64,000 nt of DNA from Pseudomonadota bacterium (GTDB taxonomy: Bacteria > Pseudomonadota > Gammaproteobacteria > Burkholderiales > Rhodocyclaceae). Position numbers and translations under genes: made by a program. The DNA lies in the NCBI GenBank assembly GCA_018241725.1, contig JAFEDI010000093.1, forward strand, positions 124,001 to 188,000. Direction: 5' to 3'. The notes below the pieces were generated by a model. It did not search any database. It saw only the letters and a program-made list of their open reading frames with translations, and was not told the DNA's origin. This document shows, one piece after another, positions 10,947 to 62,091 of this stretch; the first letter of the stretch is position 1; the number at the start of each line of letters is the position of its first letter.

Positions 10947-11022
10947 GGGTCGGTAGCTCAGTCGGTAGAGCAGCGGACTTTTAATCCGTTGGTCGCGAGT
11001 TCGAATCTCGCCCGACCCACCA
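10947..11022 (+). tRNA. tRNA-Lys (anticodon TTT)
   Basis: This 76-nt cloverleaf includes an encoded CCA. The acceptor stem GGGTCGG pairs with CCGACCC (11012-11018). The D arm carries TAGCTCAGTCGGTAGAG, the anticodon loop CTTTTAA reads TTT, and the T arm carries GTTCGAATC. The discriminator base is A. Confidence 0.97.
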
Positions 11023-11063: not shown

Positions 11064-11139
11064 GGGTTGTTAGCTCAGTTGGTAGAGCAGCGGACTCTTA
11101 ATCCGTAGGTCGAGTGTTCGAGCCACTCACAACCCACCA
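11064..11139 (+). tRNA. tRNA-Lys (anticodon CTT)
   Basis: This 76-nt cloverleaf includes an encoded CCA. The acceptor GGGTTGT pairs with ACAACCC (11129-11135), the anticodon loop CTCTTAA reads CTT, and the T arm is GAGTG/CACTC. It sits 41 nt after the TTT isoacceptor and almost certainly shares its transcript, so both lysine codons are served from one unit. Confidence 0.97.
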
Positions 11140-11147
11140 GATTCAGA

Positions 11148-11186
11148 CAAAAGGCCAATCCTTCGGGGTTGGCCTTTTGCTTTTTG
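11148..11186 (+). terminator. Rho-independent terminator of the tRNA-Lys unit
   Basis: CAAAAGGCCAA (11148-11158) pairs with TTGGCCTTTTG (11169-11179) around TCCTTCGGGG, followed by CTTTTTG. The stem is strong and lies just after the second tRNA. Confidence 0.93.
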
Positions 11187-11345
11187 TCAAATGGAGCAGA
11201 TTCCGCTATTTGGCAGCACCCGTCCTTCCCCTTCGTTCATCACAACCCGGCAACTCATCGGCCCCGCATTTCCGAGACACCGAACTCCGCAAATCCGGCA
11301 CCCACGACACAAAGGCCGCCCCACACCGCGCCCCATAGAAAAATG

Positions 11346-11374
11346 TTGCATTGCACAATATTTTGACCTATGCT
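11346..11374 (+). promoter_or_regulatory. Candidate promoter of the small RNA
   Basis: TTGCAT (11346-11351) and TATGCT (11369-11374) are separated by exactly 17 bp. Predicted start of transcription is about 11381, which is the first base of a short segment ending in a terminator. Confidence 0.6.
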
Positions 11375-11380
11375 CTAAGC

Positions 11381-11450
11381 GTCTCCTCCACCCCTCCTCC
11401 ATTGGTGTGGATTTCAACCCGAGCGGCCAACGCCTCTCGGGTTTTCTTTT
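11381..11450 (+). ncRNA. Candidate Hfq-type small RNA with exposed CUCCUCC motifs
   Basis: A ~70-nt transcript is predicted between the promoter at 11346-11374 and a terminator hairpin (AACCCGAG 11416-11423 with CTCGGGTT 11436-11443, then TTCTTTTTG). Near its 5' end is an unpaired CTCCTCC. A small hairpin follows, with stem TCCAC (11387-11391) and GTGGA (11407-11411), whose loop again presents CCTCCTCC. Such C/U-rich loops base-pair with Shine-Dalgarno sequences in known bacterial small RNAs. No plausible protein is encoded. The class is recognised by design, not by a named family. Confidence 0.6.
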
Positions 11451-11987: not shown

Positions 11988-12251
11988 ATGGCCAAAGAAG
12001 AACTTATCGAAATGCACGGCAAGGTTACCGAAGTTCTCCCCGACGGGCGTTATCGCGTCACCCTCGACAATGAGCACAACCTGATCGCCTACGCGGGCGG
12101 CAAACTGAAGAAGAACCACATCCGCATCATCGCCGGTGACGAAGTCACCCTCGAGATGTCCCCCTACGATCTGAGCAAGGGCCGCATCACCTTCCGCCAC
12201 CTGCCGCCCAAGACCGGCAACATGGCTCCGCCGCCGGCCCGCCGCTACTGA
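11988..12251 (+). CDS. infA: Translation initiation factor IF-1
   Basis: This 87-residue OB-fold protein opens with [20 protein letters not shown] and carries the typical [21 protein letters not shown] strand region. IF-1 binds the ribosomal A site during initiation. It is longer than the usual 72 residues because of a 15-residue Pro-rich tail ([15 protein letters not shown]). Such an extended, often second IF-1 is usual in betaproteobacteria, where another copy normally sits in the ribosomal protein cluster. The ATG at 11988 is set by alignment; the frame extends upstream without family similarity. Confidence 0.95.
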
Positions 12252-61598: not shown

Positions 61599-61617
61599 CG
61601 GGCCTGGAGGAGACGCC

Positions 61618-62091
61618 ATGGCTATAACAATGAAAGAGGCAGCGGGCGCGCGATCCTGGATCGCGCGCCCCAACTGCTCACTCACCCCCACACTGCGGCG
61701 TGGCGTGATCGCCCTGATCCTAGCCGCCAGCCTCATCGTCAGCACGGGCTTCCTGCTGGCCGGCGCGTGGCTGGTATTACCCTTCGCCGGCCTCGAACTT
61801 CTCGTACTCTTCATCGCACTGCGCGCCATCGATCGCCAGGGCGCCGACTACGAATCAATCCAACTCGACGACGACAGCCTGATCGTCTCGACCCGCCAGT
61901 CTTCCGTTTCGTTCCGTCAGAGCTTTCATGCCGGCTGGGCCCGCATCTCGCTCGACGCCGCCGACGGCCCCGACCCTCTACTGTACGTCCGCTCCCACGG
62001 GCACACCGCCCGCGTGGGGCGCCTGCTGACGGCGGATGAACGCAGGCTGCTTTTCTCGGATCTCTCCCGCCACCTCGCCAGACCTCATTAA
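61618..62091 (+). CDS. DUF2244 family membrane protein, first gene of the cox operon
   Basis: This 157-residue protein has two adjacent membrane helices (about 30-47 and 50-68, GVIALILAASLIVSTGFLLAG) and a C-terminal soluble domain (YESIQLDDDSLIVSTR) typical of DUF2244. Family function is unknown, but it is often encoded with cytochrome oxidase genes, as here (42 bp before coxB). GGAGGAG precedes the ATG. A 27-bp near-perfect palindrome lies within codons 9-18. Confidence 0.85.
   Translation: MAITMKEAAGARSWIARPNCSLTPTLRRGVIALILAASLIVSTGFLLAGAWLVLPFAGLELLVLFIALRAIDRQGADYESIQLDDDSLIVSTRQSSVSFRQSFHAGWARISLDAADGPDPLLYVRSHGHTARVGRLLTADERRLLFSDLSRHLARPH
61644..61670. repeat. 13-bp perfect inverted repeat inside the start of the DUF2244 gene
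   Basis: GGGCGCGCGATCC (61644-61656) and GGATCGCGCGCCC (61658-61670) flank a single T. The dyad begins 26 bp after the start codon and encodes GARSWIARP. In RNA it would form a very stable hairpin close to the ribosome binding region; as DNA it could be an operator. Confidence 0.8.

Follow-up and report, generated by a model that had tools for sequence, protein, structure and literature searches.

The closest described counterparts of the small RNA (sRNA) analysed here are ncS03, ncS05, ncS27 and ncS62 of Burkholderia cenocepacia and Hsnc059, 063, 086 and 107 of Herbaspirillum seropedicae, which share with it a sequence type, two hairpins, a seed, a terminator and multiple copies per genome. 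According to PMC5688073, levels of three B. cenocepacia RNAs go up in glucose medium, in starvation and in biofilm, and ncS27 slows growth; expression as sRNAs and slower growth on overproduction are reported for Burkholderia copies. A common upstream motif is described there for three of the four copies, with their control given as unknown; here, a PhaR operator is proposed. Effects on carbon-source genes have been summarised in a review (PMC10987360).

Bordetella pertussis S17, called RF02278-homologous, represses its target through the target's 5' UTR, coprecipitates with Hfq, and showed no similar toxicity in E. coli; the S17 authors postulate that it is repressed in vivo (PMC11722255). 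Its -35 hexamer, TTGCAT, is that of the promoter examined here (PMC11722255), and its neighbour is a coq7-type gene, just as one copy in our host genome (L001) lies beside a coq7-type gene (plus an osmC-type gene). By description, which is the basis on which S17 was compared, the ~190-nt S17L is processed by RNase E, whereas our RNA appears to start at its seed.

An sRNA gene under PhaR control has been described in Sinorhizobium meliloti, where MmgR is repressed by PhaR/AniA with EMSA support (PMC12542648, PMC8401924). MmgR, set beside our RNA by description only, differs in that it belongs to the Alphaproteobacteria and reduces phasin levels, and an Rfam scan of our RNA returned no match of that name. 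Two other RNAs, ar14 (alphaproteobacterial) and anti-hemB (Burkholderia RNA 7), share CUCCUCC-type loop motifs with it; its scores of 20.4 bits for ar14 (gathering score 58.8) and 22.0 bits for anti-hemB (gathering score 49.5) place it in neither family.

For PhaR itself, the Ralstonia eutropha consensus is YTKNTGCRNYGCANMAR, with up to three mismatches accepted there, and the protein is sequestered by polyhydroxybutyrate (PHB) granules (PMC12849132). The corresponding motif for H. seropedicae PhbF, TG[N]TGC[N]3GCAA, is backed by binding and a footprint (PMC3206438).

Anatomy and family membership of the sRNA

The window, the 64-kb stretch of DNA analysed here, comes from a betaproteobacterial genome that belongs to the genus Zoogloea. 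In the gap between two tRNA-Lys genes and infA, the initial annotation had placed a candidate trans-acting sRNA of about 70 nt with two anti-Shine-Dalgarno (anti-SD) CUCCUCC motifs, preceded by a TTGCAT-N17-TATGCT promoter and closed by a terminator. Every part of this layout was borne out, with some refinements (Table 1): the promoter is present and the segment measures 71 nt, its terminator hairpin being followed by TTCTTTT. The promoter is weak by the sigma-70 consensus, and the TTGC of its -35 hexamer forms part of a PhaR-type palindrome. A simple promoter/terminator scan listed neither this promoter nor the sRNA terminator. The start of the RNA is predicted near 11381. A terminator-like hairpin closes off the tRNA-Lys genes, so that the sRNA looks like a separate unit. 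Both CUCCUCC motifs were found, the second in the hairpin loop (UCCUCCAUU) as described; the 5' copy proved to be partly paired, because hairpin 1 takes up its last three bases in the predicted fold and leaves only CGUCUCC free.

Table 1. Coordinates of the sRNA locus, its surroundings and one candidate target in the window
Feature	Position	Strand	Basis
PhaR-type operator ATGTTGCATTGCACAAT overlapping -35	11343-11359	none	consensus match, orthologue conservation
-35 hexamer TTGCAT	11346-11351	+	sequence
-10 hexamer TATGCT	11369-11374	+	sequence; spacer to -35 of 17 nt
small RNA, RF02278 member	11380-11450	+	Rfam score and fold
5' seed GUCUCCUCCA, first anti-SD	11381-11390	+	GTCTCCTCC conservation
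first CTCCTCC	11383-11389	+	sequence
hairpin 1, second anti-SD in loop	11387-11411	+	MFE fold and RF02278 structure line
second CUCCUCC	11394-11400	+	sequence; loop UCCUCCAUU in fold
terminator hairpin and U-run	11416-11450	+	fold; hairpin 11416-11443, then TTCTTTT
tRNA-Lys(TTT) and tRNA-Lys(CTT)	10947-11022 and 11064-11139	+	context
terminator-like hairpin 3' of tRNA-Lys genes	11148-11179		context
infA (IF-1)	11988-12251	+	PF01176 at 75.8 bits
DUF2244 gene, candidate target	61606-62091	+	SD GGAGGAGAC 3 nt before ATG; sequence match only

The pair of CTCCTCC motifs within 40 nt is the single instance in the window, whereas 60 first-order Markov sequences averaged 0.017 such pairs per 64 kb. 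The 71-nt RNA folds at -27.6 kcal/mol (z -4.63), a value reached by 0 of 200 shuffles. By these measures of sequence and predicted fold, the window element is confirmed as a real sRNA gene, beyond chance.

The initial annotation had recognised no named family and had also overlooked the PhaR-type promoter site. The family has a name: RF02278, 'Betaproteobacteria toxic small RNA', which the window RNA matched at 55.1 bits (Rfam gathering score 50, E 2.4e-8). Like other members it forms two hairpins, of which the 3' one is an intrinsic terminator (fold and alignment), and it carries the 5' UGUCUCCUCCA together with a loop anti-SD, its own first base being C instead of U. The window RNA adds a member to a known family, to which pairing with the ribosome-binding sites of many mRNAs is already attributed; the earlier reading of a trans-acting anti-SD sRNA gains support in that RF02278 is taken to be a family of this kind and the window copy exceeds its cut-off. 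Elsewhere in the window lies an SAH riboswitch (RF01057, 28610-28681, minus strand, 69.8 bits).

The host genome contains seven RF02278 matches, six of them over the cut-off. At E <= 0.001, a match was found in 49 of 60 genomes (the host and 59 relatives) and in 188 of 300 genomes sampled from the order, the host included. The search of the 60 genomes yielded 90 copies over the cut-off, all of which were used as the comparison set. A conservation check of the CCUCC motifs came out in their favour: GTCTCCTCC is identical in all 90 copies, the next base is A in 89, and the second CCTCC just behind is kept in 87. Across 43 copies, 6 of the 8 predicted pairs of the terminator stem change on both sides (compensating pairs). 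Hairpin 1 varies too little for covariation, and RNAalifold took another register for it, with the loop UCC paired with GGA.

Three other genomes retain the order of two tRNA-Lys genes, RNA and infA. Identity of these three orthologues to the window is 0.94 over the operator (11343-11359) and 0.99 over the 5' half of the RNA (11380-11421), compared to 0.52-0.54 over 11186-11335, and both seed and terminator are conserved. In one relative (G023), the RNA gene immediately precedes a same-strand tRNA-Lys-like pair (L074/L172), so the tRNA-Lys link recurs there in another order.

A PhaR-type operator over the -35 region

The operator ATGTTGCATTGCACAAT departs from the R. eutropha PhaR consensus at two positions, both outermost, and agrees with 8 of the 9 positions of the PhbF motif from H. 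seropedicae. A site in the S. meliloti phaP2 promoter that is shifted by PhaR in EMSA has the same core, TTGCATTGCAC (PMC12542648). The host genome encodes one PhaR (PF07879 at 109.4 bits, C68:47179-47358), so that the window promoter combines the two features by which we would place it in a PhaR regulon: an operator of published consensus and a resident PhaR. The -35 by itself could account for the TTGC half, which leaves the GCA half and the RNY centre as the independent parts. The operator is kept in four orthologous loci, with an RNY centre in each, while the DNA just upstream has diverged.

The same element is enriched upstream of the family as a whole. Within 110 nt upstream, a PhaR-type site with at most two mismatches precedes 59 of the 90 copies (2.2 in shuffles; 2 of 173 control regions), and at most three mismatches are found at 69 (14.0 in shuffles; 15 of 173 control regions). 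Among 126 RF02278 instances in named records, a sample that overlaps the 90-copy set, the corresponding counts are 98 and 110; Herbaspirillum sp. CF444 and Noviherbaspirillum autotrophicum are named examples with the site, the latter having the TTGCATTGCACAA of the window. The best 30 loci of the order, from ten families, gave a similar picture when 170 nt were searched: 23 carried a site at up to two mismatches and 27 at up to three, compared with 10 and 29, respectively, of 120 control windows taken from these loci. Among the 108 best sites that fit at least 8 of 9 PhbF positions, 67 begin between -40 and -31, which places them over the -35. In family f4, a PhaR-type site lies 118-139 nt upstream in 6 of 7 loci, a distance that would suit a long precursor like S17L.

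Phasins are known PhaR targets. The element occurs within about 300 nt before all 29 of the top phasin genes of relatives, compared to 2 of 58 control windows, as well as before 14 of 22 further phasins and the best three of six phasin matches in the host genome; it is missing from the other 8 of the 22 and from the other three host matches. The 13-mer TTGCATTGCACAA, the core of the window site, recurs identically before a host phasin (L120/L128). An exact search of the host genome with TTGCNNNGCACAA returned 19 sites, versus 4 for a backward control; three lie before two phasins, one before the window RNA, and most others inside open frames. The same sequence also precedes an aldehyde dehydrogenase gene and an acyl-CoA ligase-like gene (L126, L140), possible further PhaR targets. 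The host PhaR locus has no exact TGC-N3-GCA within 1.5 kb upstream, and the best match within 350 nt of the gene has three mismatches, so it has no clear site of its own.

The TTGC doubles as the -35 and the copies are paralogues that could have inherited it, which leaves room for an ordinary RF02278 sRNA with a constitutive or growth-phase promoter, its TGC-N3-GCA being a by-product of an inherited TTGC-type -35. We consider this unlikely, given that the GCA half sits in the spacer, outside both hexamers, that L001-type copies have the palindrome ahead of the apparent -35, that it is kept in orthologues where the DNA just upstream has diverged, and that phasin promoters have the element in common. 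In addition, 142 of 151 TGC-N3-GCA sites have the RNY central triplet that the consensus calls for, versus 4 of 27 control sites.

PhaR-type sites track the presence of PhaR itself. Among 70 genomes in which at least one RF02278 copy exceeds the cut-off, a site at up to three mismatches was found in 59 of 60 with PhaR and in 6 of 10 without a PhaR match. In genomes at least 90% complete, the counts were 52 of 53 versus 2 of 6 (p 1.6e-4) at up to three mismatches and 48 of 53 versus 2 of 6 (p 0.0036) at up to two, statistics that ignore kinship among phylogenetically non-independent genomes. Presence of RF02278 and presence of PhaR are also associated in the 59 relatives (both 41, RNA only 7, PhaR only 5, neither 6; p 0.009), a weaker test than that of the operator and one confounded by incomplete genomes. 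In a pair of sister species, G331 has no PhaR and a site with five mismatches while G211 has PhaR and a site with one; this fits the PhaR idea, although loss of the site is unproven because the upstream DNA barely aligns.

Exceptions occur in both directions. Two complete or nearly complete genomes (G034 and G078) lack a PhaR match and nonetheless carry a site with at most two mismatches, as do the incomplete G001, G005 and G017; G002 does likewise with a site at three. G034 has phasins that carry the element, and its PhaR may thus simply be unassembled. Conversely, the best site in G326, which has PhaR, shows four mismatches.

Sites in genomes without a PhaR match, and CRP-like or TTTAT-N6-ATAAA palindromes at some copies, would also fit a real operator read by a different regulator with a similar palindrome, PhaR binding being itself a prediction. 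We regard this as very unlikely: the element fits two published PhaR/PhbF consensuses, stands in the top phasin promoters of relatives and follows PhaR presence. PhaR is the preferred reader, and in these comparisons a predicted PhaR-type operator over the -35 is conserved, enriched in the family, common to phasin promoters and correlated with PhaR. A non-trans-acting origin as an infA leader or attenuator, or as a decayed copy, we reject as extremely unlikely: the sRNA does lie upstream of infA on the same strand and the DNA from its terminator to infA is fairly conserved too (identity 0.72-0.88 in the three orthologues), but that terminator is its own and ends more than 500 nt before infA, RF02278 paralogues adjoin unrelated genes, and seed and terminator are conserved in orthologues.

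Since a site at up to two mismatches is absent from 31 of the 90 copies and from 4 of the 7 host-genome matches, PhaR is not the sole control. Three of the four site-less host matches (L002, L004 and L006, all over the cut-off) have TTTAT-N6-ATAAA at about -60. With at most one mismatch, this palindrome occurs at 12 of the 90 copies and 0 of 173 controls, and 11 of the 12 are without a PhaR-type site; relatives' copies that have it at about -60 include L013, L015 and L042. A CRP-like TGTGA-N6-TCACA with at most two mismatches was seen at 17 of the 90 copies (L055, L086 and others) and at 0 of 173 controls, and all 17 also carry a PhaR-type site. The RF02278 family thus looks like a set of similar RNAs that respond to different inputs.

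Candidate targets and phasin 3' ends

A Shine-Dalgarno sequence that matches the seed, GGAGGAGAC, lies within 8 nt of an ATG at 20 sites in the host genome, one of them the DUF2244 gene of the window. Control seeds gave 2 sites (GGAGGAAAC) and 15 rows, equal to 14 distinct sites (GGAGGAGAA); with such counts, selection for extended pairing is unsupported and the 20 genes are candidates only. About half are uptake or catabolism genes by Pfam and NCBIfam, their functions being listed without a background rate. This half consists of LamB, two porins, a branched-chain-type ABC binding protein, an ABC ATPase, the malonate transporter MadM, an acyl-CoA dehydrogenase, an acyl-CoA synthetase, a phenol hydroxylase and a 3HB-oligomer hydrolase. 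The others comprise a catalase-peroxidase, an FAD oxidoreductase, a phage sheath protein, DUF1302 and DUF2244 proteins, an AraC-type regulator, the end of a histidine kinase, two ferredoxins and a hydrolase.

Phasin genes and RF02278 also meet at the 3' ends of the former. Weak RF02278 matches begin 12-21 nt past the stop codon of phasin (PF09361) genes in G030 (two genes), G024 and G056, these four having been found through their RF02278 match. Within 40 nt of a phasin stop, CTCCTCC occurs in G026, G032 and G023 and TCTCCTC in G038, G042 and G051; the inverted repeats that follow these motifs were identified by eye. Without prior selection, the module follows 3 of 29 phasins (as CTCCTCC) and 4 of 22 (by a looser pattern), although one of the latter, L307, was discounted because 160 nt separate it from the stop. 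Five host phasins and 21 phasins of the same genus (Zoogloea) lack the module, which is thus not general. Loci with the module (L104, L109, L116, L112, L268, L278, L283, L299, L301 and L304) are spread over several genera. The UCUCCUC/CUCCUCC module of phasin 3' UTRs looks as if an sRNA were cut from the phasin mRNA, and this similarity raises the possibility that RF02278 RNAs originated at phasin 3' ends or are exchanged with them.

A proposed PHB-responsive circuit

We consider it likely, from the predicted fold, family match and operator, that the window encodes a ~70-nt double-hairpin anti-SD sRNA of RF02278 whose promoter is controlled by PhaR. Without PHB, PhaR would cover the -35 and keep the sRNA gene silent. 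Under carbon excess, as PHB granules form, PhaR would move to the granules, and its titration would allow the sRNA to be made together with phasins. The RNA's GUCUCCUCC and loop CCUCC would then pair with ribosome-binding sites, probably with Hfq, and translation of porins, transporters and catabolic enzymes would fall; we propose that uptake would thereby be matched to storage. PhaR also activates phaP3 in R. eutropha (PMC12849132), so the direction of its effect at the sRNA is presumed, above all for copies with an upstream site such as L001.

We infer that PhaR is the repressor postulated by the authors of S17. On a broader scale, we lean, with some caution, towards viewing RF02278 RNAs as the RNA arm of a PHB-sensing PhaR regulon across Betaproteobacteria, in which granules would free the promoters, phasins and a bank of anti-SD RNAs would be switched on, and carbon import and catabolism would be throttled, with a family that may stem from or exchange with phasin 3' ends and with PhaR as the repressor postulated for S17-type RNAs.

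The RNA family itself is known, and the new part appears to be the PhaR-type control element of its promoter. Among the papers listed, none connected PhaR or phasins to RF02278 or NcS27, although an earlier mention may exist. Neither PhaR nor phasin occurs as a word in the RF02278 papers PMC4603805, PMC5688073 and PMC7011215, and the ncS35 paper tabulates a single phasin-like gene but does not mention NcS27.

PhaR is a named candidate both for the control that the account of the B. cenocepacia RNAs calls unknown (PMC5688073) and for the repression postulated for S17 (PMC11722255). Control by PhaR would fit the induction of these sRNAs in glucose medium and starvation, and would extend the theme of PhaR and sRNAs, represented by MmgR in the Alphaproteobacteria, to another bacterial class. 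Zoogloea-type bacteria live in activated sludge, and PhaR control would matter there as well as for PHB production. If true, it would couple the cell's choice to store carbon as bioplastic to a widespread RNA family capable of slowing growth.
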